From Streptomyces griseiscabiei (GTDB lineage Bacteria; Actinomycetota; Actinomycetes; Streptomycetales; Streptomycetaceae), in the NCBI RefSeq assembly GCF_020010925.1, contig NZ_JAGJBZ010000002.1:1674001-1738000 (forward strand): 64,000 bases of DNA. Reading direction: 5' to 3'. The notes below the pieces were generated by a model. That model searched no databases. It was given only the letters and a program-made list of their open reading frames with translations, and was not told the origin of the DNA. Shown one piece after another: positions 8,114 to 36,350 of the stretch. The stretch's first letter is position 1. The number at the start of each line of letters is the position of its first letter. A program made the translations under genes and the position numbers.

Positions 8114-8992
8114 TCACGGTGCGGAGAACAGACCCGGACCCTGAGGGGAGGAGCCGTCGGCGCGGACGCCGCCCGTGACCCGCAGGAACTCCAGCTTCTC
8201 CGCGTCGGCGGAACCCGCGGCCACCGTGTAGACGACGAGCCGGATGTCGCAGCCCGGGACGGTGAGCACGTCGCAGTCGCAGATCACCTCACCCACCTGC
8301 GGATGTACGACGGTCTTGCGGGCCGAGACATGCGGTCCGACCGCGCCCTCGTCCCACAGCCGGGCGAACTCCGCGCTGGCGGAACACAGTTCCCCGACGA
8401 GGTCGTTCAGCGCGCGGTCGCGGGGGTAGTCGACGAGAGCCGTACGCAGATCGGCGACGAGGGCCGTCCTGAGGGAGTCGCCGTCCTGGAGCACGGGCCA
8501 GGCGGCGAGCCGGCCGGGCCCCGTGGCGAAGACCGCCCGCACCAGGCTCCGCTCGACGGATGTCAGTGCGCTGGGGTCGCCCATCAGCACCGCCCATGAC
8601 GGGGTCCAGGACAGCAGGGTCCAGTCGGCGCTGAACACGCCCACGGGGAACTCCCCGAGGCGGGCCAGCATCCGCTGGACCCCGGCCGGCACGTGCGCGG
8701 AGACCGTTCCCTCCTGGGGCGGGAGGAGGCCGGCCAGCCGGTAGGCGTGATCGCGCTCCGCGGGCTGCAGTTGCAGCGCCCGCGCCAGGCTCGCGACGAC
8801 CTGCGCCGAAGGGCTCGTGGCGCGGCCCTGCTCCAGGCGGACCACGTAGTCGACCGACAGCCCCGCGAGTTCGGCCAGTTCCTCGCGCCGCAACCCCACC
8901 GCACGGCGCCCGGGCCGCGAGGTCCGCCCGACGTCGACGGGGGAGAGCCGGTCGCGCCAGCGGCGCAGTGCCGTGCCAAGGGTCTCGTCCAC
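8114..8992 (-). CDS. MmyB-like helix-turn-helix regulator
   Basis: Regulator of 292 residues. It has an N-terminal XRE-type HTH (residues ~5-85, RREELAELAGLSVDYVVRLEQGR) and a C-terminal MmyB-like ligand-binding domain (residues ~105-270, ADWTLLSWTPSWAVLMGDPS ... VYTVAAGSADAEKLEFL). The MmyB domain is PAS-like and is thought to bind a hydrophobic ligand. Such regulators are very commonly divergent from a short-chain dehydrogenase, as here (102 bp to the SDR start), and control it. Confidence 0.9.
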   Translation of the reverse strand: MDETLGTALRRWRDRLSPVDVGRTSRPGRRAVGLRREELAELAGLSVDYVVRLEQGRATSPSAQVVASLARALQLQPAERDHAYRLAGLLPPQEGTVSAHVPAGVQRMLARLGEFPVGVFSADWTLLSWTPSWAVLMGDPSALTSVERSLVRAVFATGPGRLAAWPVLQDGDSLRTALVADLRTALVDYPRDRALNDLVGELCSASAEFARLWDEGAVGPHVSARKTVVHPQVGEVICDCDVLTVPGCDIRLVVYTVAAGSADAEKLEFLRVTGGVRADGSSPQGPGLFSAP

Positions 8993-9094
8993 TCGGTCAT
9001 TGTCTCCGCCGGGCCGTCGTCGTGCCTGGTACTGGCAGTCCTACCGTCGCGGAGGGCACTGGTTGTCCATACGTCACGGGCCGAGAGTGAAGGC

Positions 9095-9790
9095 ATGACG
9101 ACAACATTCATCACCGGAGCCAACAAGTCCCTCGGGTACGAGACCGCCCGCCGACTGATCGAGGCGGGCCACACGGTCATCGTCGGCGCTCGCGATCCGC
9201 AGCGCGGTCAGGCGGCCGGCGACGCACTCGGTGCCCGTTTCGTGCAGATCGACGTGACCGACGACGCGTCGGTGGCCGCGGCCGCCGACGACATCCGGGC
9301 CCGCGAGGGCGGCATCGACGTTCTGATCAACAACGCCGGTGTCTTCGGGCCGCACCTCCCCGCCGACCAGCTCACGGCCGCCGACGCGTCCGCCGTGTTC
9401 GAGGTCAACGTCGTGGGGATCGTCCGGGTGACGCATGCGTTCCTGCCGCTGCTGCGCAAGTCCGCGCACCCGGTCATCGTCAATGTCTCCAGCGGCATGG
9501 GGTCCTTCGAGCTGACCCACGACACCGGGCGCGCCGAGGGCCGCAACCTCGCGCCGCTCTACACGGCGTCGAAGGCCGCCGTGACCATGCTGACCACGCA
9601 GTACGCGAAGTTCTGGCCGGACGTGAAGGTGAACGCGGCCGACCCCGGCTACACCGCGACCGACTTCAACGGGCACAGCGGCCCGCAGACGGTGACCGAG
9701 GGGACCGACGCGATCGTCGAACTCGCCACCGTCGCGGCGGACGGACCGACCGGGACCTTCCGCGACCGTCACGGCGAGATGCCCTGGTGA
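9095..9790 (+). CDS. Short-chain dehydrogenase/reductase (SDR)
   Basis: NAD(P)-dependent oxidoreductase of 231 residues. TFITGANKSLGYETA gives the TGxxxGxG cofactor motif and NNAG the structural motif. The catalytic Ser is in NVSSGMGS and YTASK gives Tyr/Lys of the YxxxK pair. ATG 9095 is the family start; the open frame upstream runs through the regulator. It is controlled by the divergent MmyB-type regulator by analogy with the frequent pair. Substrate unknown. Confidence 0.9.
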   Translation: MTTTFITGANKSLGYETARRLIEAGHTVIVGARDPQRGQAAGDALGARFVQIDVTDDASVAAAADDIRAREGGIDVLINNAGVFGPHLPADQLTAADASAVFEVNVVGIVRVTHAFLPLLRKSAHPVIVNVSSGMGSFELTHDTGRAEGRNLAPLYTASKAAVTMLTTQYAKFWPDVKVNAADPGYTATDFNGHSGPQTVTEGTDAIVELATVAADGPTGTFRDRHGEMPW

Positions 9791-9865
9791 CGAGGTGAGA
9801 CGCCCTGGTGACGACGAGCGTCGCGAGCCGGGGGGTGTGAACCGCCGGTACGACATCTGCCAAGA

Positions 9866-9883
9866 TTATGACGACTGTCATAA
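9866..9883. promoter_or_regulatory. Perfect 7-4-7 operator upstream of quinol monooxygenase gene
   Basis: TTATGAC-GACT-GTCATAA is a perfect inverted repeat 18 bp before the ATG at 9902. The same GACGACTGTCATA core recurs at 12291-12306 before the gene at 12317, so one repressor (MarR- or TetR-like, not in the window) probably controls both promoters. Confidence 0.7.
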
Positions 9884-9901
9884 AGCGAGAGGTGCAAGCC
9901 C

Positions 9902-10225
9902 ATGACCAACCCGGTAGTCCTGGTGGCGACGATGGTCGCCAAGCCCGGCCAGGAAGAGCTGATCGAGAAGACGCTGACGGCGGCGGCGGCCAAGGTGCAC
10001 GCCGAACCCGGATGCCTGCGGTACGCGCTGCACCGCAAGGCCGGTACCACCGGTGAGTTCGTCATGATCGAGAAGTGGGCCTCGCGGGAGGCGCTGGGCG
10101 CGCACATGAAGGGTGCCGTGATGCGGGAGATCGGCGCCGCCCTGGCACAGGCGCTGGCCGGTGCCCCGGACATGGTCTTCCTGGACGCGATCCCGGCCGG
10201 CGACCCGGACGTCGGCGCCGTCTGA
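9902..10225 (+). CDS. ABM-domain putative quinol monooxygenase
   Basis: Protein of 107 residues with a single antibiotic-biosynthesis-monooxygenase ferredoxin-like domain (VVLVATMVAKPGQEELIEK ... AEPGCLRYALHRK ... FVMIEKWASREALGAHM). YgiN-type relatives oxidise or detoxify quinols without a cofactor. GAGAGG upstream serves as ribosome site. First gene of the group reading through the alcohol dehydrogenase and thioesterase, under the 9866 operator. Confidence 0.85.
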   Translation: MTNPVVLVATMVAKPGQEELIEKTLTAAAAKVHAEPGCLRYALHRKAGTTGEFVMIEKWASREALGAHMKGAVMREIGAALAQALAGAPDMVFLDAIPAGDPDVGAV

Positions 10226-15808: not shown

Positions 15809-15810
15809 GC

Positions 15811-16000
15811 TCAGAGCCAGTCCCGCCGCTTGAAAATCACGTACAAACTGGCACAAACAACCCCCGTCAGGCCGATCGCGAAGGGGTATCCGAAGCTCCA
15901 GCCCAGCTCCGGCATGTGCGTGAAGTTCATCCCGTAGATCGTCCCGACCAGCGTCGGAGCAAACAGAATCGCCGCCCAAGAAGAGATCTTCTTGAAGTTG
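15811..16000 (-). pseudogene. corA 3'-end fragment (duplicate of 36348-36540)
   Basis: The minus strand encodes the last ~60 residues of a CorA Mg2+ transporter: KKISSWAAILFAPTLVGTIY, then GMNFTHMPELGWSFGYPFAI and a YVIFKRRDWL stop. The GMN selectivity motif and both transmembrane helices are present, but nothing upstream of the KKISSW segment. It differs from the intact gene by scattered changes, mostly silent (E-to-T, M-to-T and I-to-V among the coding ones). The first 38 bp, stop codon included, are identical to the intact copy. A non-functional displaced 3' end. Confidence 0.85.
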
Positions 16001-16790: not shown

Positions 16791-17230
16791 GCAGCGGTTC
16801 GGGGCTGGGGCGACGAAGTCGCGGTCCACCAGGTCCGGGGCCCGTTCCGCGCTCACGTCGGGGATTGTGGTGATCACCCGCTTGCCGCGGACCGCGCCGA
16901 TGATGCCGAGCTCGCGCATGAGGCGTTCGACGGTGCAACGAGCCACCGCGACACCCTGGCGGTTCAGGAGCCGCCAGATCTTCCTGGCGCCATAGACACG
17001 GTAGTTGGCCTTGTACGCATCCTGGATCAGGATCTTGAGCTCACGGTCGCGGATGGTGCGGGCGGCCGGTGTGGCCTGGCGTTTGTGGTGGGCGTAGTAC
17101 GTGGACGGGGCGATCTTGCAGTCGTGTGCGGTCAGCACGCGGCAGATCGGCTCGACGCCGCCGAAGCGGCCCTTGTGCTCGTCGATGAACGCTACGAGCG
17201 TGTGTGTGGCCGGTCGAGCTCGGCCCTGAC
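16785..17230 (-). pseudogene. IS3 orfB (DDE transposase), 3'-truncated
   Basis: The frame reads VAFIDEHKGRFGGVEPICRV and LTAHDCKIAPSTYYAHHKRQ (HTH_21), then RVYGARKIWRLLNRQGVAVA and CTVERLMRELGI. It is lost after DLVDRDFVAPAPNRC, just before the first catalytic Asp. The rve catalytic core is therefore absent. Confidence 0.8.
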
Positions 17231-17529
17231 ATTGACGCGAAGAAAGACGCCGCAGCCTTGAGGATCTCGTTCGCCCGCTTCAGCTCGGCGTTCTCCTTCG
17301 TCAACCGCTTCAGCTCTGCGGACTCCTCCGTTGTGGTGCCCGGCCGGGCCCCCGCGTCGATCTGGTCCTGCCGTACCCACTTGCGCAGGGTTTCTGTCGT
17401 GCCGATGCCCAACTTCTGGGCGACCGCTTTCATCGCAGCCCACTCGGTGTCGTACTGCGGCCGCACCTCAGCGACCATCCGCACCGCACGACGGCGCAGC
17501 TCAAGCGGGCATTGGGAAGGACGTGCCAT
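17041..17529 (-). CDS. IS3 orfA (transposase HTH subunit)
   Basis: MARPSQCPLELRRRAVRMVA with the HTH and a Leu/Glu coiled coil (EESAELKRLTKENAELKRAN) is the standard orfA product. The natural OrfA part ends near residue ~105, where IS3 elements shift -1 into orfB; the listed frame reads on to 162 residues through orfB sequence. The HTH part is intact, but without a working orfB it is probably silent. Confidence 0.75.
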   Translation of the reverse strand: MARPSQCPLELRRRAVRMVAEVRPQYDTEWAAMKAVAQKLGIGTTETLRKWVRQDQIDAGARPGTTTEESAELKRLTKENAELKRANEILKAAASFFASMSGPSSTGHTHARSVHRRAQGPLRRRRADLPRADRTRLQDRPVHVLRPPQTPGHTGRPHHPRP

Positions 17530-17557: not shown

Positions 17558-19039
17558 CTATCGAACCCGGAACGGTTCAGTAGGCATGTTGGCTCTGGCC
17601 AAGTGGCGTGCCACTGCGGCTGTGGGGAGGTTCGTGTTGGCCCGAGGGACCGTTGGCATCACGGACGCGTCCACGACCAGGCAGTTGTCCAGACCCCTGA
17701 CTCGACCGACCGGGTTGGTGACCGCCTGCTCACCCGTGCCCATGGAGCACGTACCGACGGGATGCCAGTAATGGTGATGGGACGCGCGTACCCACGGAAC
17801 GAGGTCGGTCGGACCGGGTGACAGCTCGGAACCGAGGACTCCGCGCAGATCCGGTGTCGAGGCCAGGGCACGCACCAGGTCGATTCCGTCGAGGAGGACC
17901 TGGAGGTCTCTGGTGTCAGTCAGGAAGCCGTGGCAGATCAGCGGGGGAACCGCAGGATCCCGGGACCGAAGGCGGACCTTGCCGCGTGAGCGCGGTGTCA
18001 GACAAGCGACGGGCAGCACCCAGCGCCACGCGCGGCCTTCGAACGGTGTTTCCGACACGGGGAACAGATGCAGGTCGAACGCCTCTGTCGCCTGACCGGA
18101 TCTCGCCTTCACTAGAACGGGCTCGTCGGCTGACTGGTGGGCCGTCAGCCAGTGTTCCATCGCACGGCATAGTTCGGGGGTGCCGGTGAACTGGACGTCG
18201 ACCGTGGGTTGGTCGTGCAGGTTGGCGCCAACACCGGGCAGGGGCACCACTGATGTGATCCCGAGCGCCGCCAACTCGTCGGGAGGGCCGATACCGGAGC
18301 GAAGCAGGATCGCCGGCGAGCCGTAGGTGCCCGCAGCCAGCACCACTAGGTCCGCACCGAGGATCTCTTCATCGGCCAACCTCACTCCGGTGACGCGGCC
18401 ACGGGTGACCAGGAGCCGGTCGACGGTGCGATTCGGCAGCACGGTGATGCTACGACGGACATCATCGAGGAAAGAGAACGCCGAGTTGCGCCGGATGCCA
18501 CCGTAGGTGGTGCTCGGGATGGTTCCCACGCCTTCGTCGCCGTCCAGATCGTTGACGTCGGACTGGAACGGAAAGCCCGCCGTGACTGCGGCGTTCAGGC
18601 AGGCAAGCTGAAACGGCGTAGTCTCCTGAGGCGTTGTGTTGCGTACCCGGAAACGCTCGCTGACCGCCGTGAGTTCCGCGCGCATCACATCGGCGGACCA
18701 CCCAGCGAGGTGCCAGCCGTCGTAGTCGGCACGGTGTCCCCAGCTGGCGACGCAACCGTTCACGGATGAGGATCCACCGATGACGCGGCCGCGATCGAGA
18801 GCGAGCGTGCGGCCGTTCGGCAAGGTCTCGGTGAGGTTCCAGTCATGGCTGGTCGGAAGCGACCACGGCGTCAGCAGATCGGCGGGCCAGCTGCCGTCGG
18901 TCAGGGGGCCGAAGTCAGGGCCCGCCTCGACCAGGATTGTGGAGCGGCCGACGCGTGCCGCCTCACTGGCGGCGACGCATCCGGCTGTACCGCCGCCGAG
19001 AACGACAACGTCTGCTGTGCGCACACATACCTCCGACAA
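17558..19039 (-). CDS. GMC-family FAD oxidoreductase, 3' end replaced by IS3 sequence
   Basis: Choline-dehydrogenase-like flavoenzyme of 493 residues. The FAD Rossmann motif is VVVLGGGTAGCVAASEAARV (~residues 11-30) and the GMC signature is GRVIGGSSSVNGCVASWGHR. The catalytic His lies in HHHYWHPVGTCSMG, and VVDASVMPTVPRANTNLPTA is the C-terminal signature. The last seven residues, TEPFRVR, and the stop are read from the IS3 terminus, so a few natural C-terminal residues are lost; all catalytic parts remain. It is the last gene of the leftward arm, 74 bp after the trypsin-STAND gene. Likely oxidises an alcohol or sugar; substrate unknown. Confidence 0.85.
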   Translation of the reverse strand: MSEVCVRTADVVVLGGGTAGCVAASEAARVGRSTILVEAGPDFGPLTDGSWPADLLTPWSLPTSHDWNLTETLPNGRTLALDRGRVIGGSSSVNGCVASWGHRADYDGWHLAGWSADVMRAELTAVSERFRVRNTTPQETTPFQLACLNAAVTAGFPFQSDVNDLDGDEGVGTIPSTTYGGIRRNSAFSFLDDVRRSITVLPNRTVDRLLVTRGRVTGVRLADEEILGADLVVLAAGTYGSPAILLRSGIGPPDELAALGITSVVPLPGVGANLHDQPTVDVQFTGTPELCRAMEHWLTAHQSADEPVLVKARSGQATEAFDLHLFPVSETPFEGRAWRWVLPVACLTPRSRGKVRLRSRDPAVPPLICHGFLTDTRDLQVLLDGIDLVRALASTPDLRGVLGSELSPGPTDLVPWVRASHHHYWHPVGTCSMGTGEQAVTNPVGRVRGLDNCLVVDASVMPTVPRANTNLPTAAVARHLARANMPTEPFRVR

Positions 19040-19113
19040 GGGGTTTCAGGGTGAGTCAGGCTGTGGACATCGGGTAACGCAGCGGGGTTGTTCCGGCAGC
19101 CGGTGACAAGGGA

Positions 19114-22100
19114 TCAGGACAGCAGGCGTCGCAGCGCCGGACTTCCGGGCAGGTCATGGTCGGCCAGCCGACCGAGGACCTGGCGGTGATCGTGCATGAC
19201 CCCGGGTGCGGCGCCGAAGACTTCGAAGACCCTCCCGACCTCGGCCGGCGGGTCCGCACCCGTTCGGCAACTCTCCACCGCGGCGAGCCAACCCGCTGGC
19301 AACGTTTGCCACGCGGTGCCCTGGCCGACCCTGGCGAGCGCCGCCCGAGCAGTCCCGATGGTCTGGTCGGCCCCGTCCGCGATCGGCTGGGCCATCACCC
19401 GGAGGGTGTGCCAAGCGGCTTTTGTCAGCGGAGTAGCGCGAACGAACAGCTCTGCCGATGGCACCGGTTCGCCGAGTAGGAACAGAGCGGTCACCAATTC
19501 GCAGCGGGCCCAGGCACCGTAGAGGTGGAACGCCGCGCGATCGTAGGACGACGCGGCATCGCCTGCGAGGCGCACGGCCGCGGTGAGATCTCCCTGTCGC
19601 CTGGCCAAGACGCTCTCGGCCAGGACCACGCTGGCCGCGGCACGGGGGTTGCAGCCGTCAGCAGCCATATGGCAGCGTCGGATGGCGCTCTCCGCCGCAT
19701 CGACGTCCAATAAATCCGTAAGTGTCCAGGAAAGGGTGGCCAGTCCTGAGGCCAGGCCCCACCGGTCCCCGATCTCTTCGTAAGTCTCCAAAGCGCCCAG
19801 CAACAGCGGAACGGCGGCGTCCGGCGCGCCGGCGACCCGCGCTAGGCCGGCGAGTACGCAGTCCGCGTACGCTTCCAGACCTCGGTCTCCGATGTGGCGA
19901 GCGATGTCGCGCGCCACGGTGGCCCGTGTCGTGGCTCGAGGTGTCAGGCCGAGAAGGCTGTCGGAGACGGCGGCGTTGATCAGTGCGCCCGCTGTGAGGA
20001 ACGCACAGGTCGGGTCTGTGTCGCGCTCGCGCCTGACCAGAGCCATGGCGCGTTCCGCGCACGAGACGGACGTGGCGAGGAAACCCATGGGGCGCAGCGT
20101 GTGGGTCAACTGAACCAAGCCGCGTGCGACGACCCGGAACTCGCCGTCACCCTGCTGTGCGGCAGCGTGCAGCGCGCGCCGGAACGTACGGAGCGAGGCG
20201 CGCAAACTTCCGGAATCCCGCTGGGATGCGCCGAGGTCGACCAGAATCGCCGGTAGCGTGCGGTGGTCGCCGTTCGTGGTGGCGGCGGCCTCCGCTTTGG
20301 CCAGCCAGTCCAACGACGTGGCCGCTTCGCCCATCAGCCAGTACAGCCTGCCCAGTCTCATGGCGTTGCGGACCCAGTCGTCTCCCACGGCGACATCGGC
20401 CAAGGATCGAGCCAGGTCCGCCGTGACCCGGTACTGGCCGATGTTCTCCAGCAATCCACCGACCTCGTCGAGCACTTCCGCGGCCTGATGGTGATCACCG
20501 CTGTTCAGCAGGTGCTCGGAGGCGAACAGCATCGGCCGGACGTCGTCAATGTCACGCGGATCTGCTGTGGCCTTGCTGAGCCGGAGGTAGTGGTCGGCTG
20601 CTCTGCGGTGGAGCAAGGCGACGGTGGCCTCCTGCTGTTCGGCGGCCTGGCGCAGGAGATACCGTCGATCGGCAGGATGAAGCGCGACGGTCTTGCTGGT
20701 GCGGTCACCTGAGACGATCTGGGTACGGACCAGCCGCCGGACCAGTGACGGCACGTCGAGGCCGGGCGCGAACGGCCGCAGGATGAAATCCACCCCGCCG
20801 GTCGCCATCGGGCGGCCGACCACCGCGAGCGCCAACAGCACCCAGCGTGCCGGGCGGTCAAGCCGGGCAAGTGTTTCGGCGATCAGCTCCCCGAGCGACT
20901 CGTTCACGGCGGGCATGTCCAGCGTGACGAGGTCATCGACGGTCAGCAGGGGATCGCTGGCCAGCATCCCAGCTATCAACTGCAGTGCGCGGGGAAGGCC
21001 GTGCACCGCGGTGGCCAGTCGGCGCAGCACATCGTCCGGTGCGTCAGCGAGTCCGTACTCCGCCTGTGCATCCAGCTCGCGCAGCATTCGGACGGACTCG
21101 TCGTCCGGTAGACCGGCACGCAACTCGACACATCGAGTCCTCGGCAGCACGCTGGTGGAAAACTGCACCTGTTCCCGGGAGGTGATCAGGAACGACACCG
21201 GGCTGGCGACGAGCATCAGTTCGGTCAGCAGCGCGTCCAGCTCATCTCCACCGGTAAGTCGACCGTTTCCGTCGAGCAGGTCCTCGAGATTGTCCAGCAA
21301 CACAACGACGTGACGGTCGTCGAGGACCTCCAGCACGGACGCGACGCGCCGGTGGAGTGGGATCGCGCGCGTCGACCAGGTGCGGAACAAGTCCGCGTCA
21401 CCGGTGAGCTGTGCCAGCTTGAGGACGATCTCATCACTGGAGATGCCGGAGCTCGTACGCGTGGAGAGGAAGACGACTCCGTCGATGCGTGGTCGCGAGC
21501 CGCTGTGGAACCAGTGTTGCGAGCGCAGCGCGCTCAGTACACGCGCGGCCAGCGCGGTCTTGCCCACGCCGGCGCGGCCGATGACGGACACGACGCCCAC
21601 CGAATCGTCTGCTAGTGCCCTGCTGATGTCGCCAGTCTCGTGCACCCGGTCACGGAACAGATGCTGCGGGTCGAACGGCCTGACGCCGACCGCAGGCGCG
21701 ACGTCGGCCCTCAGGGCCCCCGTACCGTGCAGACCGCTTTCGGCCAGGGCTTCGAGACGGCGCTCCTGCCGTTCTCGACGGGACGACCAGCCTTCCGCCG
21801 CCGAGCGGAGTTCGTCGATGCGGGGCTGGAACCGGCCTGGAGCGGACGAGTGGGATTGGATGTCCTCAAGAGCATCCGCCAAGGAGGCCGGCTTGGCCGC
21901 CAGCGCCGCGTCGGCTGCGGCGGATACCGCCGCGGCAACTGCCTCACCGACCGCTGAAACCCTGACGAAGCTCCGCAGGTAGGTGGGGAGTGCAACTCCC
22001 TCGTCGGCGACGACGATGAGCACGAGTTGTCGGAACACCGCGGCCACGACCAGTTCCCGCGTCGACTCGAACGTGAGAGCCATGCCGTTCGCGACCAACA

Positions 22101-22905
22101 CCATTGTCTGTACGTCGGCGAGGACAGCCGGATTCGGTTTAGGTATCTCGCCGTCAGACACGAAAACACTGCGCGCGGCGAGGCCCCGAACGCGCAACTC
22201 GGCGGCGATCCGATCCGCAAGAGTGTCGATTGCGGTGGCCACTACCATGACCTGCCGCGCGGCGGGCGAGTCACTGCCGGCGGCCTGCTGTGCCTCGATC
22301 TCCTCAAGCCGGTTCCAAGCAGACGCCACCCGGTACAGCGGCATCGCGAGCACGGTGTCACGTGCACCGCGCGGGCCGGTGACCGCCTCGATCTGGATGC
22401 CGACCACGGCGCCAAGTTCGGTGCTCACGATGGGAGCGCCGCTGTAGCCCGGCTCGGCCAGCTCTTGGCTGCGGCAGCGAAACAGCCGCAACGATGCGTC
22501 GTTGCGGGGATCGAACGGACCGATGATGTCGCCTGCACCGGCACTGATCGTACGAAGGGTGACGCCGAAGCCGGCACTGGCGAACGAGCCGCGCGGAGCG
22601 TGTGCCAGGGCGATGGGCAGCGCCGCGATTCTGCGGTCGTCCAGGTCCACGTCGAGCACGGCGAAGTCGATGCCCTCCGCAGGCTGGTGTGCCGCGACGA
22701 GAACGCGTGCCCGTAGCGGCCCGTGGCCGGGGAACGTCACTTTGAGATCGCCAGCCCCGGTCAGCAGGTGGCCAGCAGTGAGGACGATACCCGTGGGCGC
22801 CGCCAACCAGCCGGTACCCGAGACCGAGGCGCCACCGACCGAGATCCCGCAGACAGCAGTGGAGAGCAGGTTTGCGAGCACGTCGGCGTCATGCTTCGGT
22901 CGCAT
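19114..22905 (-). CDS. Trypsin-like peptidase / TIR-like / NB-ARC STAND NTPase / TPR protein
   Basis: Multidomain protein of 1263 residues. ATG 22905 is chosen; it overlaps the upstream gene by 17 bp (GTG 22932 is an alternative). Residues ~10-200 are a trypsin-like protease with H46 (VLTAGH), D80 (GIDFAVLD) and S155 (EPGYSGAP). Residues ~220-330 look TIR- or SEFIR-like (LVANGMALTFESTRELVVAA...LPTYLRSFVRVS). The NB-ARC ATPase has Walker A GRAGVGKTAL near 440 and Walker B VVVLLDNLEDLL near 535, then a winged helix. The last ~450 residues are TPR-like helical repeats. It lacks a signal peptide, so it acts in the cytosol. Proteases fused to STAND ATPases are known from bacterial conflict systems; the trigger and the cleavage target are unknown. 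Confidence 0.85.
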   Translation of the reverse strand: MRPKHDADVLANLLSTAVCGISVGGASVSGTGWLAAPTGIVLTAGHLLTGAGDLKVTFPGHGPLRARVLVAAHQPAEGIDFAVLDVDLDDRRIAALPIALAHAPRGSFASAGFGVTLRTISAGAGDIIGPFDPRNDASLRLFRCRSQELAEPGYSGAPIVSTELGAVVGIQIEAVTGPRGARDTVLAMPLYRVASAWNRLEEIEAQQAAGSDSPAARQVMVVATAIDTLADRIAAELRVRGLAARSVFVSDGEIPKPNPAVLADVQTMVLVANGMALTFESTRELVVAAVFRQLVLIVVADEGVALPTYLRSFVRVSAVGEAVAAAVSAAADAALAAKPASLADALEDIQSHSSAPGRFQPRIDELRSAAEGWSSRRERQERRLEALAESGLHGTGALRADVAPAVGVRPFDPQHLFRDRVHETGDISRALADDSVGVVSVIGRAGVGKTALAARVLSALRSQHWFHSGSRPRIDGVVFLSTRTSSGISSDEIVLKLAQLTGDADLFRTWSTRAIPLHRRVASVLEVLDDRHVVVLLDNLEDLLDGNGRLTGGDELDALLTELMLVASPVSFLITSREQVQFSTSVLPRTRCVELRAGLPDDESVRMLRELDAQAEYGLADAPDDVLRRLATAVHGLPRALQLIAGMLASDPLLTVDDLVTLDMPAVNESLGELIAETLARLDRPARWVLLALAVVGRPMATGGVDFILRPFAPGLDVPSLVRRLVRTQIVSGDRTSKTVALHPADRRYLLRQAAEQQEATVALLHRRAADHYLRLSKATADPRDIDDVRPMLFASEHLLNSGDHHQAAEVLDEVGGLLENIGQYRVTADLARSLADVAVGDDWVRNAMRLGRLYWLMGEAATSLDWLAKAEAAATTNGDHRTLPAILVDLGASQRDSGSLRASLRTFRRALHAAAQQGDGEFRVVARGLVQLTHTLRPMGFLATSVSCAERAMALVRRERDTDPTCAFLTAGALINAAVSDSLLGLTPRATTRATVARDIARHIGDRGLEAYADCVLAGLARVAGAPDAAVPLLLGALETYEEIGDRWGLASGLATLSWTLTDLLDVDAAESAIRRCHMAADGCNPRAAASVVLAESVLARRQGDLTAAVRLAGDAASSYDRAAFHLYGAWARCELVTALFLLGEPVPSAELFVRATPLTKAAWHTLRVMAQPIADGADQTIGTARAALARVGQGTAWQTLPAGWLAAVESCRTGADPPAEVGRVFEVFGAAPGVMHDHRQVLGRLADHDLPGSPALRRLLS

Positions 22906-23272
22906 CGGCCCTTTTCCAGATGAGCTTGGCACGCAAGGTGTAGTCGCCCCTCACCCCGAGCCAGACCGGCCCGCCTTGCGCGGACAGCCCCAGACACACC
23001 TCGGCCTCCACCTCCGTGGGACGGTGCTCGACAGGGATGCCCGACAGCTCGCGGCCAACCGTGCCGGCAATGTGTGACAGCAGCGCAGACATTTCTCCGA
23101 CAGCGCCGTCGACCCGGTCCCGAATGCCGGTCGGTGACGTCATCCGCTCCTCACCGGCGGCTTCGGGCGGTGTCGGCGACAGGTCGCCGGGCAGCGGGAC
23201 GACCTTCACCGCGTACGGTTGCCCGCCCTCGGTCTGTGACACCACTACGTCCATCGTCAGCACCTCATTCAT
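22889..23272 (-). CDS. Trypco1 (trypsin-co-occurring, CU044_2847 family) protein
   Basis: Protein of 127 residues. ATG 23272 overlaps the end of the FkbH-like gene by 8 bp (CCATGAATGAGG), and its own end overlaps the trypsin-STAND start. The N-terminal strand (MDVVVSQTEGGQPYAVKVVP), central helices (VGEMSALLSHIAGTVGREL) and C-terminal strands (EVEAEVCLGLSAQGGPVWLG...LRAKLIWKR) match Trypco1. That domain is described beside trypsin-like proteases in NTP-dependent conflict systems and is thought to be substrate, inhibitor or activator of the protease. Coupled translation with the protease supports a physical partnership. Confidence 0.85.
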   Translation of the reverse strand: MNEVLTMDVVVSQTEGGQPYAVKVVPLPGDLSPTPPEAAGEERMTSPTGIRDRVDGAVGEMSALLSHIAGTVGRELSGIPVEHRPTEVEAEVCLGLSAQGGPVWLGVRGDYTLRAKLIWKRADATEA

Positions 23273-25334
23273 GGCGATCGACGGGTTCCACCGTCACGAA
23301 GGTAGGGAAGTGAGTCGGCCTTCTGTGGTCCAGGCGCCAGCGTCCCGGCGCGCACTCCTGGAAGCCGGCCACGGCGTACAAACCGTGGCACGGCTCGTTG
23401 AGCCGGGTCCGGACCAACCGGGCCTCGATCGGGGTGCCGTACTCGGTGATGATGAGGTCCAGCAGCACGTTCTCCACGCCGTAGCCCATGGCACGGCAGC
23501 TCAGTACGAACGACTCGATGGAGCGGCGTGCGCGGTGCACGACGGCTGCTGCGACCAGGCCGAAGTCGCCGAAGCGATCCCGCAGTGACGCCACGTGCAC
23601 GACCTGTTCCGAGCTGGGGTCCGTCATGCGAGACAACGCCTGCTTTGAGAGCCACATACCGGTGGTGTTGAACTGGTTGGTGCGTCGTAGCAGCTCCAGC
23701 GTGCGGGGCACATCGGTCGGCTGCATCGGCCCACTGGACAACTGCAGCCTCAGTGCGGCCATCGCGGTCGCCGTGGCCTGCGCTCCGGCTTGGGAGGAAA
23801 CGAAATCCTTACGGCGCCGGGCGGTTCGGTAGCGGCCGGTGCGGCGCACGCCGTCGCTGGTGACGGTGGTCAGTTCCGCAGCGAGTGACAACCTCCGCCA
23901 GACGTCGCGATCGCGGGCGTCAAGGACCGTAAGTTTGGGAAAGGCGCTGGCCAGCAGGGCCCGTTGGGTTGCGTCGTCGTCGATGACGCCGACGTGCTCC
24001 GGCCGAATGTCCAGAACCTGCAGGGCCTCGGCCAAGGCGACGGGCTTGGGTTCCCAGCCGCGTCTGACAGTGACGAAGTCCTCCGGGGTGATGTCCGTTT
24101 CCCGCCATCGAATAGACTCGGGAGTGCCTTTGCTGAGCCCGATCAAAACGATGCCCTGCCGGGCGAGGCGACGAAGTAGCGCCTGGCGGTCGCGGTGCTG
24201 CGTGACCCTGCCTTCGGCCATCACTCCGGACCACAAGGTGCCATCGAAGTCGACAGCCAGGGCACGGAGCCCGGTCAGTGTTACAGCGGCTTCGACGATG
24301 TCCTCGTAGGAACGCGCTATTTCTCGGCTCAGCCGACTGGTGTGATGGAGAGAGTCGGGAAGGGAAATCCCCGGTGCGGCCGGCTCGGACGCCTGTCGCA
24401 GACCGACGCGTTCGACGATGTCGGCCTCGTCGATGAGCAGCACCCCCGGCCATGTGCGTACTCGTTCCTTCAATACCGCATTCAGCGCATTGATCGCAGA
24501 CTGCCCGGCCGATGTCAGTGGTGGGAGGCTGGTGATGTCGGCACGTTCGGGCCCCTCTGGCGCGCCGCTGGCATTGTGCAGCAGGATCGGTGCGTCGGAC
24601 CATAGCCTGATTTCTTCGACCGCATGCCCCACCAGGTCCACAACCCCGTTCACGGTGACCGTGGTGGGATGGCTACCTTGGGACGATTCTGCGAGTAATT
24701 GGCGGAAAACGGGCAGTGCATCGAAGGTGAACGGGCTGAATCCGATCATTCCCACAGGGTGACGACCGGCGAAGTCGCGGGCGGCGGCGAGGTGGAACGG
24801 GGCACTCAGCGCGCTGCTGAAGTACTGGTGATAGCCGCGGAGACTGATGCCTTTCTCGCGGAGGCTGTCCGTCAGGAAGCACCGCACTCCGTTCATCAGG
24901 CAGTCACCGAGCAGGAGCATGTTGTAGCGAATCCCCGGCGCCGTGAGCAGCGGTTCATGCAGATGATCGAGCGTGTCGATTGCAGCGCTCGCGCCGAATC
25001 GGCGACTGATCGCCGCGCGTTGGGCCGCGACTAACTCGGCCACCTCGAATCCGAATATGTTGCCGTTCCTCGCGTCGAGAGGGTGCCCCAGTTGCAGGGG
25101 GTATCGCTGTAATTCATCTCGATAAACGGCAATGAGCTCGGGTGAAGGGTTTTCGATCAGATGGGCGACCATGTGCAACATGGCCGGCAGATACCGGTCG
25201 GTGAATTCCTTGCGCACAGGCGAAGTCGGAGCTGGGCGGCCCGGATCGGCGTTCAAACTCGCGGCCCAGTCCCGGGCTATTGATCGGTTGTTCTGGCGCA
25301 GTACCGAGGCGAGCAGGGTTTCACTGGGCGGCAT
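23265..25334 (-). CDS. FkbH-like HAD-IIIC protein with SGNH-like and GNAT-like parts
   Basis: Protein of 689 residues. ATG 25334 has GGAAGG 4 nt upstream. Residues ~1-135 are a helical region of unknown family; residues ~140-340 are SGNH-hydrolase-like (LLLGDCLM, then MIGFSPFTFDALPVFRQLL). A HAD-IIIC core spans ~355-490 (LAVDFDGTLWSGVMAEG, LSKGTPESI, GVIDDDATQRA), and an acetyltransferase-like tail holds SLRDRFGDFGLVAAAVV. FkbH itself loads glyceryl from 1,3-bisphosphoglycerate onto a carrier protein. No carrier or PKS gene is present here, so the acceptor must differ. It heads the leftward arm and is translationally coupled to Trypco1. Confidence 0.8.
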   Translation of the reverse strand: MPPSETLLASVLRQNNRSIARDWAASLNADPGRPAPTSPVRKEFTDRYLPAMLHMVAHLIENPSPELIAVYRDELQRYPLQLGHPLDARNGNIFGFEVAELVAAQRAAISRRFGASAAIDTLDHLHEPLLTAPGIRYNMLLLGDCLMNGVRCFLTDSLREKGISLRGYHQYFSSALSAPFHLAAARDFAGRHPVGMIGFSPFTFDALPVFRQLLAESSQGSHPTTVTVNGVVDLVGHAVEEIRLWSDAPILLHNASGAPEGPERADITSLPPLTSAGQSAINALNAVLKERVRTWPGVLLIDEADIVERVGLRQASEPAAPGISLPDSLHHTSRLSREIARSYEDIVEAAVTLTGLRALAVDFDGTLWSGVMAEGRVTQHRDRQALLRRLARQGIVLIGLSKGTPESIRWRETDITPEDFVTVRRGWEPKPVALAEALQVLDIRPEHVGVIDDDATQRALLASAFPKLTVLDARDRDVWRRLSLAAELTTVTSDGVRRTGRYRTARRRKDFVSSQAGAQATATAMAALRLQLSSGPMQPTDVPRTLELLRRTNQFNTTGMWLSKQALSRMTDPSSEQVVHVASLRDRFGDFGLVAAAVVHRARRSIESFVLSCRAMGYGVENVLLDLIITEYGTPIEARLVRTRLNEPCHGLYAVAGFQECAPGRWRLDHRRPTHFPTFVTVEPVDRHE

Positions 25335-25626
25335 GGCACCTTCCCGTGCTTGGACCGCAGCCGACGTAGGCTCATGATGGCGCACTGTCGGCGCAGCGGC
25401 AATGGTGTGTCGCGCGGTCGTCGTTGATCTTGACTGCAGGTCGGACGTAACCGCAGGAAGCGATCGTGTTCGCCGTCTTCGCCTGGACTCGCCGATTTCG
25501 AAAACCTCCTTATTGCCTTATGGACACTGTGCGCATCCTCGGGCAGGGTTGCCTGATGAACCGTGGTCCCAACCTCCTCGGCATCCATGTCGCGACGTCC
25601 ACGGTCCCAGCGGTTGGAGGCTCGCT
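25335..25626. promoter_or_regulatory. Divergent promoter region of the island cluster
   Basis: The 292 bp between the FkbH-like and radical SAM starts must hold the promoters of both arms. The base composition drops here, with AT-rich sequence at 25500-25525. TTGATCTTGACT near 25424-25435 could supply a -35 for the rightward arm. I see no strong palindrome. GGAGG at 25616-25620 is the ribosome site of the radical SAM gene. Confidence 0.45.
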
Positions 25627-26511
25627 GTGAGTCAGACCGAACCACATGAACTCATTCGGTACGTGCAAATTGAAACCGGGACCGCCTGCAACTACCGTTG
25701 TCGCTACTGTCCCGTGGCTTACCATCCGCGCAGCGGCGGATTTCTTCCGCTGGAGGTCATCGCATCCCTTTCCGTAGACCTGGCCCGGCTTCCGGCGCTG
25801 GAGCAGATCTACCTCAACGGTTACGACGAGCCGACCACGAATCCACATCTGGTCAAAGTTTTTGAAATGCTCTCGCCACTGTCTGCAAGAATCGTACTGC
25901 TGACCAACGGTACGAGGCTAACCAGGGATCTCGCGGAACGCATTGTGGAGTCCGGAGCGAATGTCGAGTTTGACATACATCTCTCGGCGGCAGATCCAGT
26001 CGAGTTCAGGCGTGTTCATCAGAGTCCACTCTACTCGACGGTCATGCGGAACCTCGAGGATATTTCGACCTCACCGGTCGCACGCAGAATGGAATTACAT
26101 ATCAGCATGCAAGGTCGAGATACGCCGGGTGACAACGCGACGTTCACCGCGATCTGCGATAAATTCTCGAATACGCCCTTCTCGATTCACCGATACGATC
26201 CGAATGATCGGGCAGGATTGCTGAAAAACGAATATCAAGAAAACGTGTACCACCGATCACTGCGCGGCTGCGCATTGCAGAACCGGACCCTGGAGTGGCT
26301 GCACATCAATGCGACGGGGGTCGCCATCCTGTGCTGCCAAGACTACTTCGAGCAGTACCCGATCGGGCGAGTTCCCGACTCGGATCTGATTCAGCTCGCC
26401 GCTTCGGCGAGTCGGCTCCGCTACCACTCCTGGACCATGGGGAAGGAGGTCGCACCGAAGGACTACCTGTGCCGACGGTGCGTGCACGCGAAGAGTGACG
26501 AGGCGATCTGA
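25627..26511 (+). CDS. Radical SAM enzyme with SPASM-like C-terminus
   Basis: Enzyme of 294 residues. GTG 25627 has GGAGG 6 nt upstream. The cluster motif C21-x3-C25-x2-C28 (CNYRCRYC) binds the SAM 4Fe-4S cluster. QIYLNGYDEPTTNPHLVKV provides the GGE-like SAM-binding strand. Further Cys residues near 215, 236, 237, 282 and 285 (CALQN, LCCQ, CRRC) resemble a SPASM or twitch auxiliary-cluster region. Codons are visibly AT-richer than in flanking chromosomal genes, a sign of transfer. The stop overlaps the start of the next gene by one base. Substrate unknown; no precursor peptide with a clear core was found beside it. Confidence 0.85.
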   Translation: MSQTEPHELIRYVQIETGTACNYRCRYCPVAYHPRSGGFLPLEVIASLSVDLARLPALEQIYLNGYDEPTTNPHLVKVFEMLSPLSARIVLLTNGTRLTRDLAERIVESGANVEFDIHLSAADPVEFRRVHQSPLYSTVMRNLEDISTSPVARRMELHISMQGRDTPGDNATFTAICDKFSNTPFSIHRYDPNDRAGLLKNEYQENVYHRSLRGCALQNRTLEWLHINATGVAILCCQDYFEQYPIGRVPDSDLIQLAASASRLRYHSWTMGKEVAPKDYLCRRCVHAKSDEAI

Positions 26512-28529
26512 TGGTGAATTCTGACGAAACAAAAGGATACCCGGACTTCGATACCGTACGGCGTGCGCTCCGAAAGCGAAGAGCAGTTCTCGGTGGCAGC
26601 TACCTGGTGCCGGAGTTCCTCTGCGACAGCGCGAGCAATCATTCGAATCCGGTTGATGTAGGGGATCCGTACACTTTTTTCTCCGACCTGTTCGACAGGA
26701 TTCTCGCCGACAACCGGCACGACGGCGATACTCCGCGGGGAATCTGCAGCACGGACCGAATCTATCAGAGTTTCCCCCGTACCTTCGCTGCTCTGAACGG
26801 GCGCATTGGAACCGCCCTCACGCAGATCGCCTTCCTTCCGTTCCTGCGGGACAGGGTTGGAATCACCATCTTCATATGTCTCCCCGTCGGACGAATCGGC
26901 CACACCAATCGCAAGGGGGAACGCGGATCGCCATTCGCCGTGAGCAATCCATTCGACATCGACCAGTCGCTGGGTGATCCGCTCCTGCCCGAGGTTCCGG
27001 TCGTCGTTCAGTATCGAGCACTGATCCAGGCTTGTGAGCTTCTTGGGATTCGCCCCGGCTCGATCGTTCCCATGGCGACTCTGGCGGTCGACAGCCCGCT
27101 GTTCGCGTCAATTCCCAAACTCGGTTTCTGGTGGCGGGCGGAACCTGGAGAGCTCGTATACTGCGCGGCCACGACGCAGGGGATGTCGCGACAACCAGAC
27201 CTTTCCACCCCGAACATCGATTCTCGAACGGCCAACCGGTTCGTACCGGCGCCCGATGCGAAGGCCGTTACCGCTGTCGAGAACGTGACGGGGCGGCACC
27301 ACGTTGTTCAAGACGACTCGGACGCCGGGATGGTCACACTGGCCAATGCCTTTCCCGACGTACTTGCTGGTGATGCCACGACTTACACCTGGAGCGACGT
27401 GGCCGCCGTCCGCTATACCCGTGGCGATGTACCACCGCCGGCCGGGCGGCGGTGTCCGACGGCGTACGATCCGGAACAGCCGGCGTGGGACCTGATGCCC
27501 GCATTGCTCGCCTGGCGCTATCACGAGCTTGGTGAGCGGGTATTCCTCATCGACGTGGGACCGAGTGTCCCTCCGGAACTGCTCCGCCGAGCCCGTTGTC
27601 TAGCAGGGGCCTGGCGCCCTGACTTCGCCATGCGCCTCGGCTCCCTGGGGGCCGGGTATCTGTCATCGGTCGACGCCGAACATCTTCTCAGGGATCTACG
27701 TCAGGTTGCCACCGACGTGGCAGGGGGCGCTGATGAGGACATGGTCTTCATCAGTGAGGAACTGTGGGATTTCGACCTTCCGGACGCAGACTTCGACGCG
27801 GTGTGCGGGCCGCTGATCTACTGCGTGAGCGCGCACACTCACAACCTCCCCGTCTTGACGAGGTCATTGGCGCACCACCTGAGGGTCCTCCAGGGCCGTT
27901 CCGGAGGATCTCCATTCCTTGCCGGTGTAGGAAACCACGACACATTCCCTGCTCTTCCCTGGGCCTCCGCCCTGTTGCAGGTCGTCTACGAGTTTCTGCC
28001 CGATGCGGTACCGCTCATATTCAGCGGTACCGAATGGGGGGCTGGTGTCATCACTAACAAAGAATTCGGTTTCGACACGGCTCCCGATCTCCTTCGGAAA
28101 CGTACGCTCCTTGGTGATGAGATTCTGGCTCTTTTCAATGACGTCCCGATCGACTGGCGAGAAGTGGGCCCAGAGTGTCGCCAACTCGACTTGACCGGCC
28201 AACTATTGGCTGCATCCCGAGAGCTCGGCGACCTGGCGGGTTGGGAGTATGCGACGTACTTCCCCGAACCGGACCTTGCGCCTAACTGCTTCGGCTACAT
28301 CCGCCACTGCCCCGAAGCCGGGAGCCGGCTTGTTGTGCTCGCGAACTGGTCACCGGTGGCAACTGTGATTCAGTGGAAGCTGCCCTCCGCGTCTCTGGTG
28401 CTCGTGGTCCCGTTTGATGGGCTGCCCCCGTTCCTCCGCACGGACCAGATGATCACGCTGCCCGCACGGTCGATCATCGTGACACTCGACAGTCAGGACG
28501 ACTTGGCCGGCCAGCCTGCGGCATCGTAG
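26511..28529 (+). CDS. GlgE/GH13-like alpha-amylase-superfamily protein
   Basis: Protein of 672 residues in a TGATG overlap with the radical SAM gene. Residues ~125-215 resemble GlgE-type GH13 enzymes (GRIGHTNRKGERGSPFAVSN ... YRALIQACELLGI). ISEELWD fits region III with the acid/base Glu and GVGNHDT fits region IV. The region II segment reads FAMRLGSLGAGYL, where the nucleophile Asp of a normal F-R-x-D motif appears to be Gly. It may thus be a non-hydrolytic or inactive member, or my alignment is off there. The C-terminus (LVVLANWSPVATVIQWKLPS) is the usual beta domain. A role in handling a malto-oligosaccharide or sugar phosphate is inferred. Confidence 0.7.
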   Translation: MVNSDETKGYPDFDTVRRALRKRRAVLGGSYLVPEFLCDSASNHSNPVDVGDPYTFFSDLFDRILADNRHDGDTPRGICSTDRIYQSFPRTFAALNGRIGTALTQIAFLPFLRDRVGITIFICLPVGRIGHTNRKGERGSPFAVSNPFDIDQSLGDPLLPEVPVVVQYRALIQACELLGIRPGSIVPMATLAVDSPLFASIPKLGFWWRAEPGELVYCAATTQGMSRQPDLSTPNIDSRTANRFVPAPDAKAVTAVENVTGRHHVVQDDSDAGMVTLANAFPDVLAGDATTYTWSDVAAVRYTRGDVPPPAGRRCPTAYDPEQPAWDLMPALLAWRYHELGERVFLIDVGPSVPPELLRRARCLAGAWRPDFAMRLGSLGAGYLSSVDAEHLLRDLRQVATDVAGGADEDMVFISEELWDFDLPDADFDAVCGPLIYCVSAHTHNLPVLTRSLAHHLRVLQGRSGGSPFLAGVGNHDTFPALPWASALLQVVYEFLPDAVPLIFSGTEWGAGVITNKEFGFDTAPDLLRKRTLLGDEILALFNDVPIDWREVGPECRQLDLTGQLLAASRELGDLAGWEYATYFPEPDLAPNCFGYIRHCPEAGSRLVVLANWSPVATVIQWKLPSASLVLVVPFDGLPPFLRTDQMITLPARSIIVTLDSQDDLAGQPAAS

Positions 28530-33979: not shown

Positions 33980-34713
33980 GTGGGCCGCGATCGCCGGTCA
34001 GTCTGTCTCGATTGCCCCGTCCACCCGCCTGAAACCAACCGAGGCCCTGGCGGATATCCCCATGAGTCCATCGGTGTTCTACGTCTCGCGGACCGTGCCA
34101 AGGAGCTCGAGGCGCGCTGGACGGTCAACGGTTGCGAAATGTCTGAATCCTTGGGGGCGATCTGCTGGCGTTGGCTGCGGGACTGGAACGAGGCCGGTGT
34201 CTGGGACCGGCAGCGCCAAGTGCCGCTGACCGAGTTGCATCAGACCTCAACCGGCAAGACCCGCGTCGTCGACATGACTCCGTCGGTCGCGGCGGCCCTG
34301 GACCAGTACTTCATGGAGTACTGGGCGGTCGAGGTGGAGCTGCCGTGGGGTGGCCCGGAGCCCGAGCGGGAGGCGAAGAAGTTCCCGCTCGTCATCACCA
34401 CGACGTACGGCAACGCCCTTCGCGTGAACATCTTCAATGTCGAGGTGTGGAAGCCGGCCCTGGCGGCATCCCCATGCGGAAGAAGGACGAGCGGTGGAAG
34501 GCGTCTCGCAGGGATGGCTTCCACGTGCTCCGGCACACGTACGCCTCGGTCATCCCCGAAGCGGGCGAGTCCGTAGTCACCCTGGCCCGCCGGCTCGGCC
34601 ATTCGAGCCCGACGATCTCCCCGGACTGTTAAGCCCACTTCATGTCGGAGGCCCATGACAAGGGGCGCGGGGCCATCGACGCTCTGCTCGGCCAACCTGC
34701 AATGGCCGCGTAG
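33980..34713 (+). pseudogene. Tyrosine recombinase (integrase) with catalytic Tyr codon replaced by stop
   Basis: One frame gives TELHQTSTGKTRVVDMTPSV ... FPLVITTTYGNALRVNIFNV-EVWKPALAA. After a frameshift near 34460 the next frame gives DGFHVLRHTYASVIPEAGES, LARRLGHSSPTISPDC, then TAA, then AHFMSEAHDKGRGAIDALLG and stop at 34711-34713. Relatives read ...T(I/L)xxHYAHF: the H-x-x-R and LGH motifs are kept, but the catalytic Tyr triplet is TAA. Dead integrase of the island. Confidence 0.8.
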
Positions 34714-34926: not shown

Positions 34927-35598
34927 TCAGTCGATGTCGGTGTCACCGAGCTCTTCGAGGAGGCGGCTCGCGAGGTCGTCGGCCCATTCCACGGCCCAGG
35001 CACGGGGAGAGCGGCGACGGTGGCTTCGTCGAGGCCGTAAGCGGTGAAGGCTTCGTCGTCGGTCCACTCGGCACCGGTGAGGTTCGCTCGGAGGCCCTCG
35101 CGCTCGAAGCGGCCGCGGGCGTGGCGGCGGCCGAGCTCCTCGAGCTCGGCGTTCGCCCAGCGGCGGGAGGCGGCGAACACGTCGATCAGGTCGCGGGGGT
35201 GCTCCGCGGTCGGCGAGGGCACGGACCTTGGTCTCGACCACGTCTTCCTCGGCGAGGACAGGCCCGTACGGGCTCTGGGCGACGGGCCGCCAGAAGTTCT
35301 CTTTGAGGATGTCGACTTCGCACTCATGCCCGGTAGCGGGGTCCGTCACGCTGAAGCGAGCAGACAGCGGGGCAGTTTCCAGCGCCTGCACCATCCAGCC
35401 CCGGGCCGATAGACCGCTGCAGAGCGCTGCCGCGATGTCGGCCATGGGCGCAGGGCTCTCGGTGGCGACATCCAGGTCCTGGCTGGGGCGGTTCACTAGG
35501 CGGTGCGCCCGCACCGCGTACCCGCCGGTGAGGACCAGGGGATACGGCGAGCCAAGGGAGATCACATCCGCCAGGAGCCGCGTGTGCAGCTCCGGCAT
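34927..35598 (-). pseudogene. AbiEii-like nucleotidyltransferase with two compensating frameshifts
   Basis: ATG 35598 starts MPELHTRLLADVI, LVLTGGYAVRAHRLVNRPSQ, DLDVATES, the G-G-x(n)-R-x-S-x-DLD pattern of AbiEii/MNT-type nucleotidyltransferases. ILKENFWRP and EEDVVETKVRALADRG follow. In a C5 run near 35190 one extra base throws the frame off. The other frame reads RDLIDVFAASRRWANAELEE, and near 35000 a second indel returns it to WAVEWADDLASRLLEELGDT and stop. Correcting both gives a ~223-residue protein. Only 5 nt separate it from the upstream partner gene, as in toxin/antitoxin pairs. Whether it is decay or sequencing error is open. Confidence 0.65.
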
Positions 35599-35603
35599 GT
35601 CCG

Positions 35604-35995
35604 TCACGCGGCTGCCCGGGGCCGGGAGGCGAGCTCGGGGAAGGCGTCCTCCCACACAGTGCGCACGGTGCGACCGACGAGGGTGCGCAGCACGGGCCAC
35701 AGCTGGAGCAGCAGATCCCGGTTGAGGTAGCGGGGCAGGTCGTCGAGTAGGCCCTCGTGCAGGACCGTGCGGTACAGGCCCATGCGCTGGCGAGGTTTGC
35801 CCAGGTCGTATGAGGTCATCCTGGACCAGGCCAGGTGCAGCGGCAGCTCCACGACGCCGTGGGTCGGTCCGTGCACTCGTCCAGTGACTCCGGTAGACGG
35901 CGCCGGAACTTTTCCCGGTACAGCGCGAGGTCCTCGGCGTCCGCGCCAGAGAGGTTCCTCGGCCCGGGTCCGGTGTGCTGCGGGTTGGAGGCCAT
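35604..35995 (-). pseudogene. Partner gene of the nucleotidyltransferase, one frameshift
   Basis: ATG 35995 begins MASNPQHTGPGPRNLSGADA, EDLALYREKFRRRLPESLDE. After a one-base slip near 35877 the adjacent frame continues VHGPTHGVVELPLHLAWSRM, YDLGKPRQRMGLYRTVLHEG, WPVLRTLVGRTVRTVWEDAF to the stop at 35604-35606. I recall the joined sequence as a conserved actinobacterial gene that precedes such nucleotidyltransferases, so it may be the antitoxin or regulator. Biochemical role unknown. Confidence 0.6.
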
Positions 35996-36165
35996 GCCTC
36001 CATTATGGCGGCCGCACAGGGTCGAGGGCTGGTGGCTTCAACCAAGAAGTCAATGTCACTGTCTATGTCCGTTGTACGCGGTGGCAACGGCGCTCGGCGG
36101 CAGGCTTTGCGGGGCATGGGACAGGGATGGAGTCGCCGGCGCAGGGTCCGTGACGGCGGCTGATT

Positions 36166-36328: not shown

Positions 36329-36350
36329 TGAGCCCCGCAAGAGGGGCTCA
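36329..36350 (-). terminator. corA terminator hairpin
   Basis: TGAGCCCC (36329-36336) and GGGGCTCA (36343-36350) form a perfect 8-bp stem around GCAAGA and overlap the corA stop codon. The displaced corA 3' end at 15.8 kb lacks this partner arm, which is consistent with recombination within or just past the stop codon. Confidence 0.65.

Follow-up and report, generated by a model that had tools for sequence, protein, structure and literature searches.

The closest described relatives of the locus treated here are the nucleoside triphosphate (NTP)-dependent conflict systems (Kaur et al. 2020, PMC7159879), in which Trypco1 (trypsin-co-occurring domain 1) stands beside a trypsin-like peptidase, and the nuclease-protease pairs of Hachiman and Avs (PMC12799240), in which a trypsin-like protease fused to a defence protein activates a pro-nuclease encoded by a separate adjacent effector gene. 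The locus lies in a stretch of 64,000 nucleotides, hereafter the window, of the 10.6 Mb genome of Streptomyces griseiscabiei (contig NZ_JAGJBZ010000002.1, positions 1,674,001 to 1,738,000; G000:C2:1674001-1738000). It resembles the first group in that its Trypco1 gene adjoins that of a trypsin-like peptidase, which here forms one protein with a STAND NTPase and tetratricopeptide repeats (TPRs). It differs from that group in adding three conserved metabolic enzymes, namely an FkbH-like protein, a BtrN-type radical SAM enzyme (rSAM) and a GH13-type maltosyltransferase-like enzyme, and in that no MoxR, vWA, VMAP or GAP1 partner was found among the 17 open reading frames (ORFs) of the window scanned with Pfam. 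From the Hachiman and Avs pairs it differs in that its effectors would be sugar and acyl enzymes and not an MBL nuclease, and that cleavage is here putative. Neither FkbH nor amylase occurs in the main text of PMC7159879 or of the one other paper found to mention Trypco1, and in the open-access literature searched there was no record of a Trypco1-trypsin-STAND protein combined with FkbH, rSAM and GH13 enzymes, nor of maltosyltransferase together with antiphage. We tentatively read the locus as a Trypco1/trypsin-STAND conflict module gating a conserved carbohydrate-modifying cassette on a mobile island, a reading to which we give somewhat less than an even chance.

The gene list of the initial annotation is borne out by open frames and by Pfam and NCBIfam matches, with the genes for a GMC oxidoreductase, the trypsin/NB-ARC/TPR protein, Trypco1 and the FkbH-like protein running leftward and those for the rSAM and the GH13-type enzyme rightward (Table 1). 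The 292-bp region from which the two arms had been said to diverge likewise stands, resulting from an FkbH ATG at 25334 and an rSAM GTG at 25627, the latter with GGAGG immediately upstream; no sigma-70-type consensus was found within the region. The proposed overlaps are also present, since the FkbH and Trypco1 frames share 8 bp (ATGAATGA), the Trypco1 and trypsin genes 17 or 44 bp depending on the start codon, and the rSAM and GH13 genes are coupled through the junction TGATG, and the trypsin gene is separated from the GMC gene by 74 bp if the latter starts at a TTG, or by about 90 bp if it starts, as it probably does, at a GTG near 19024 that is preceded by its own GGAGG. Trypsin_2, NB-ARC (34.3 bits) and TPR_12 all exceed their Pfam cut-offs in the large protein, the STAND P-loop is intact (GRAGVGKT at 452), TPR superstructure repeats are present, and the catalytic triad, numbered from the GTG at 22932, is presumably H55-D89-S164 by motif, S164 being the S155 of the initial annotation if the ATG at 22905 is the start. 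The TIR-like domain claimed for this protein did not hold up, residues 215-360 matching 0 Pfam families at E 5. The Trypco1 gene adjoins the peptidase gene, and the same arrangement recurs in the independent locus L003 discussed below. A RiPP (ribosomally synthesised and post-translationally modified peptide) pathway was also considered and rejected, since the HaaT match scored 29.9 bits against a cut-off of 1125 and was confined to the TPR part, although no precursor-peptide search was made. A second and stronger Trypco1 (70.1 bits) is found in the same genome at G000:C2:1250630-1250968 (L121).

The notion that the three enzymes form a set stems from their relatives in other genomes. Protein searches returned at least 27 GH13, 52 rSAM and at least 28 FkbH relatives, own proteins included, the GH13 and FkbH figures being lower bounds since scoring was in each case confined to the roughly 8,000 candidates with the most words in common. 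Co-occurrence was gauged by exactly equal size of the longest contig printed for each protein cluster, and equal size is here taken to mean the same contig. By this measure 12 of the 27 GH13 relatives, own included, share a contig size with an rSAM relative (own, 130,019, 93,457, 82,427, 71,652, 39,844, 36,904, 12,011, 11,297, 8,158, 7,805 and 5,565 bp), five of the 28 FkbH relatives share one with a GH13 relative (own, 340,853, 130,019, 7,805 and 5,254 bp), and all three enzymes meet on three (own, 130,019 and 7,805 bp). The source names agree wherever both are given (Micromonospora sp. NPDC047557 and a metagenome-assembled genome (MAG) of Ktedonobacteraceae), the locus tags in the Micromonospora strain being ACGGAQ_30300 for FkbH and ACGGAQ_30310 for GH13, and four of the six FkbH relatives with at least 62% identity share a contig size with GH13. 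Furthermore, the GH13 and rSAM distance matrices are closely correlated (Mantel r 0.947, p 1e-4, 9999 permutations, n = 12 proteins each), and that these two enzymes evolve together points to a joint product. Because the three families share exact contig sizes, and their trees match, sequence comparison strongly indicates that FkbH, rSAM and GH13 constitute a conserved cassette.

An independent link between the GH13 enzyme and a sensor of this kind comes from another bacterial family. Two further GH13 loci, L003 and L004, both from Streptosporangiaceae MAGs, emerged when 84,980 species genomes were scanned with a pattern prefilter. In L003, Trypco1 (5984-6298, 45.1 bits), a trypsin-AAA_16-TPR protein (6301-9990) and GH13 follow one another on one strand, the GH13 open frame overlapping the end of the protease gene, and since a single Trypco1 was found in the genome concerned (G1027 by matching coordinates, 93% complete), this adjacency is unlikely to be due to chance (about 1 in 1000 by a rough estimate). 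L004 (4.4 kb; 173-4239) has GH13 directly downstream of a TylF-type O-methyltransferase gene, and the other strand encodes a DUF4062 protein. As an observation in its own right, the AAA-TPR part of the L003 protease protein matches the TOMM kinase/cyclase fusion model (E 2e-32, 111.8 bits, cut-off 705.75), which hints that STAND/TPR parts serve biosynthetic loci as well.

Two controls bear on the same point. For the first, 40 Trypco1 loci were taken from the window's order, a non-random choice from the listed strong matches with one locus per genome and 7-8 kb on each side; 35 of them have a trypsin gene on the same strand no more than 500 bp away, and in 0 was GH13, rSAM or FkbH found. Likewise 0 of 20 FkbH loci drawn from the search of the class (also non-random, being higher-scoring matches taken one per genome, three of them shortened by the contig end or by the stretch taken) had Trypco1, trypsin, GH13 or rSAM, where the Trypco1 profile, built without L024, misses the window's own divergent Trypco1, so that similarly divergent copies escape this control. 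The trypsin profile was partly trained on the window protein, which it recovers, and gave 0 matches in the FkbH loci. Co-occurrence in other genomes, by which the initial annotation had wished its claim to be judged, is therefore negative for the common families and positive for the rare GH13 family, which accompanies the sensor in two of three readable loci (the window and L003, but not L004 with its 4.4 kb); as the window cannot count as independent, L003 is the one true test. What remains of the claim of one system is that FkbH, rSAM and GH13 recur as a set and that GH13 is tied to a Trypco1-trypsin-STAND operon in L003, and what falls away is the GMC oxidoreductase, which was dropped as a fifth member as no GMC relative was found in L003 or L004 or in the 40 Trypco1 loci. 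We conclude that conservation of the enzyme cassette is well indicated, that its coupling to the protease-STAND module is probable, and that the pairing of sensor and enzymes is probably real.

Several facts weigh against a gated cassette. The window Trypco1 barely exceeds its Pfam cut-off (PF19493, 25.7 bits versus 24.6, and 25.6 bits in the genome search), the two arms of the locus are divergent, and the PADLOC output was confined to a weak match to TPR and to viperin matches of the rSAM core. Furthermore, among the listed relatives 15 of the 27 GH13 proteins lack an rSAM partner and 23 of the 28 FkbH proteins share no contig size with GH13 (one of these 23 has no printed size), and there is no PP-binding match to indicate an acyl carrier protein among the 17 scanned ORFs of the window, small ORFs lying outside that scan. 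The link between GH13 and the sensor is moreover seen in one independent locus only, and there the STAND part is AAA_16 and not NB-ARC, the GH13 enzyme is of a different clade and has a shorter stretch behind the presumed nucleophile, and no FkbH, rSAM or GMC relative was found in the 20 kb, just as no Trypco1 was found in the 4.4 kb of L004 or in its genome (G1035, 91% complete).

The chief rival explanation is that two independent neighbours share an island. FkbH, rSAM and GH13 would then be a complete pathway in themselves, leading to a metabolite derived from a sugar or from glycerate, beside which an ordinary Trypco1-trypsin-STAND module landed. The trio is conserved in its own right, Trypco1 is common in the window's order (150 of 197 genomes) while the enzymes are absent from the 40 control loci, and transposase-type frames are found on both sides of the locus. 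However, the FkbH and Trypco1 frames overlap, and the joining of GH13 to the only Trypco1-trypsin operon detected in the L003 genome would then have to be the rare coincidence estimated above. This explanation is a serious contender, if still a rather unlikely one, and the gated cassette remains the reading that we follow.

The FkbH-like protein matches its NCBIfam model (TIGR01686) with E 3e-38 and 131.7 bits, below the cut-off of 146.65, and its structure model and Foldseek matches show a helical N-terminus, an SGNH-like domain with an invariant GDC, a HAD-IIIC domain and a GNAT-like C-terminus. D362xD364xT366 and C613, which we take by motif to be the DxDxT of the HAD domain and the cysteine (SCR) of the GNAT region, are invariant in all 17 sequences of alignment A3, which holds 17 of the 28 relatives, 11 having been left out. 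With up to 3 candidates scored per genome, a match at E 1e-20 was found in 63 of 345 genomes of the class, and the full-length subfamily in the window's own genome only (1008 bits, the next best among the 344 others being 246). The HAD-IIIC domain with DxDxT and the GNAT-like C-terminus with the SCR cysteine are shared with the FkbH-type glyceryl transferase/phosphatases Mad7 and Mad14 (PMC7489565), whereas the protein of this locus was seen alongside neither acyl carrier protein nor polyketide synthase and its full-length subfamily was not found in the 344 other genomes. The SGNH and GNAT acyl-transfer folds, together with the maltosyltransferase-like GH13, might suggest two-layer protection. 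The enzymes would then decorate a storage glucan, or a glycan on the cell's own surface to which phages bind, and killing as a last resort would fall to an independent protease arm. Glycosyltransferase, HAD and GNAT domains are indeed reported in related conflict systems (PMC7159879). The direct coupling of GH13 to the protease gene in L003 is in poor agreement with such a separation, and we consider it improbable.

For the GH13-type enzyme neither Pfam nor NCBIfam gave a match at E 0.01, and one source annotates its relative P0018 as an alpha-amylase family protein. The model of the window enzyme has the GH13 barrel fold and is closest to the Thermotoga maltosyltransferase, followed by an amylase and GlgE, so that the earlier designation as GlgE-like was close, GlgE being among the nearest structures without being the nearest. 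Sequence identity is 22% to the Thermotoga maritima maltosyltransferase (1gju) and 17% to GlgE (4cn4, 3zss), from which the window enzyme differs in having no Pfam match and in lacking an arginine two residues before the presumed nucleophile. D348, E416 and D477 are invariant in 29 of 29 aligned sequences (alignment A1 contains all 27 listed relatives), and we take them, by motif and strand position only, to be nucleophile, acid and stabiliser. The residue two positions before the presumed nucleophile is leucine in 20 of the 29 and arginine in none, and because this arginine, part of the usual GH13 motif, is absent throughout, ordinary amylase activity is doubtful.

The family is rare: a search of 5.8 billion proteins, in which scoring was restricted to the 7,989 candidates with the most words in common, gave at least 27 relatives, own included. 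It was found in one of 293 genomes of the order, namely its own, in two of 396 of the phylum (own and a 17-bit match with an internal stop), in two of 341 of the family of G895 (by coordinates the L003 and L004 genomes), in none of 160 of the genus of G489, where an empty answer is uninformative, and in no viral contig, the absences from genomes being soft as 3 to 7 first-look candidates were scored per genome. The sole plasmid match is apparently a fragment, a gene of about 268 codons adjoining transposition genes in Polaromonas plasmid pPNAP04 (L007, 11947-12753) that resembles GH13 residues 410-551 with 38.5% identity. Since GH13 is common to the three readable loci while its partners differ, it might by itself be the effector, released by the protease to degrade or reroute alpha-glucan, with rSAM and FkbH as accessories in some systems, and mycobacteria are reported to be poisoned by accumulating maltose-1-phosphate (PMC11046441). 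The coevolution of rSAM and GH13 and the missing arginine both speak against this, and we regard it as quite improbable, more so than two-layer protection.

In the radical SAM enzyme the Radical_SAM match is above and the SPASM match below the Pfam cut-off (19.1 versus 21.5), and the cysteines comprise C21-C25-C28, C215, C236-C237 and C282-C285, that is, a CX3CX2C core and an auxiliary-cluster (twitch/SPASM-like) region of the BtrN-type twitch class. By sequence profile the enzyme is closest to BtrN (E 1e-16), which matches both core and auxiliary region. The adjacent pair C236-C237 is invariant in the 31 sequences of alignment A2, taken from the 52 relatives. The core and auxiliary-region cysteines align with those of BtrN, the 2-deoxy-scyllo-inosamine dehydrogenase (4m7t; PMC9012708), from which the window enzyme is nevertheless distant and differs by the extra adjacent pair. 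That it is instead a viperin-like maker of antiviral nucleotides, as two pVip matches (27.0 bits at E 7e-7, and 22.1 bits) might suggest, is very improbable, and the candidate was rejected, since the match extends over no more of the radical SAM core than residues 94-183 (numbered in the longer frame), the NCBIfam viperin model scores 21.3 bits against a cut-off of 180, and BtrN fits both regions. A distant relative (23-26% identity) heads a conserved cluster on Streptomyces and Nocardia plasmids (L039, L040 and L041), followed by a second gene (radical SAM by annotation in one) and genes for a creatininase, an arylsulfotransferase, a glycosyltransferase, a methyltransferase and an ATPase; two of the three loci also have an XRE regulator gene in divergent orientation.

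The surroundings suggest that the locus probably lies on a mobile island. The 187-bp corA remnant duplicates the end of an intact frame at 36348-37640, which we name corA from our own reading of the sequence, and the two enclose transposase-type frames and the locus. Beside the intact frame are an AbiEii-like frame (21.4 bits, cut-off 22.5) and a weak remnant of a tyrosine-recombinase/integrase C-terminus (PF00589, E 0.012), and these flanks look like an integrative element and fit a mobile defence island. In two loci of the same genus, L124 and L126, an intact corA-like copy is likewise followed, after about 11 or 3 kb of inserted DNA, by a fragment of the corA 3' end, and in L125 the stretch taken, which excluded that genome's second match, has one corA-like copy. 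The corA 3' end is possibly an integration hotspot.

Table 1. Features of the locus and of its flanks, in window coordinates
Feature	Position	Strand	Basis
corA 3'-end remnant	15809..15995	-	92% identical to end of intact frame 36348-37640
IS3-family transposase remnant (left flank)	17041..17529	-	Pfam/NCBIfam
GMC-family FAD oxidoreductase	17558..19039	-	Pfam GMC_oxred_N/C
Trypsin-like peptidase / NB-ARC STAND NTPase / TPR protein	19114..22932	-	Pfam and motif positions
Trypco1 (trypsin-co-occurring domain 1, divergent)	22889..23272	-	PF19493
FkbH-like protein	23265..25334	-	NCBIfam TIGR01686, alignment A3, structure model and Foldseek
Divergent intergenic region, 292 bp	25335..25626	n/a	
BtrN-type radical SAM enzyme	25627..26511	+	Pfam, alignment A2, BtrN profile E 1e-16
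GH13-type maltosyltransferase-like enzyme	26511..28529	+	D348, E416, D477 invariant
Tyrosine-recombinase/integrase remnant and AbiEii-like frame	34171-34632 and 34927-36117		

What we infer of a defence role, and with it of the trigger, the protease target, the substrates and the product, can be put as follows. Once the C-terminal repeats bind a trigger, the NTPase would oligomerise and so unleash the serine protease, which may gate the payload by cutting one of the cassette enzymes or Trypco1. The FkbH-like enzyme would take a glyceryl unit from 1,3-bisphosphoglycerate, the BtrN-type rSAM may oxidise (or epimerise) an alcohol of a sugar or cyclitol, the GH13 enzyme would transfer a malto-oligosaccharide unit, and the cassette would thereby make or alter a small molecule or glycan of the glyceryl or sugar type, by which the infected cell would be harmed or arrested. 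Such gating is suggested because of the precedent of pro-nuclease activation in Hachiman and Avs (PMC12799240). In its most specific form, in which an infection-sensing STAND protease proteolytically switches on a metabolic pathway of glyceryl transfer, radical oxidation and maltosyl transfer, producing a sugar-type toxin or signal on demand, the proposal is a speculative and, on balance, unlikely one.

To our knowledge, the protease-linked bacterial immune systems known so far act via nucleases, pores, phospholipases or the protease itself. If the gated cassette is real, proteolytic activation would here be used for small-molecule biosynthesis rather than for a nuclease or pore, and a payload acting through synthesis or editing of a carbohydrate-derived molecule would be a new effector class and may yield a new metabolite. 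The GH13 family, which has no Pfam match and is rare in all sets searched, forms with its coevolving BtrN-type partner a testable enzyme pair.

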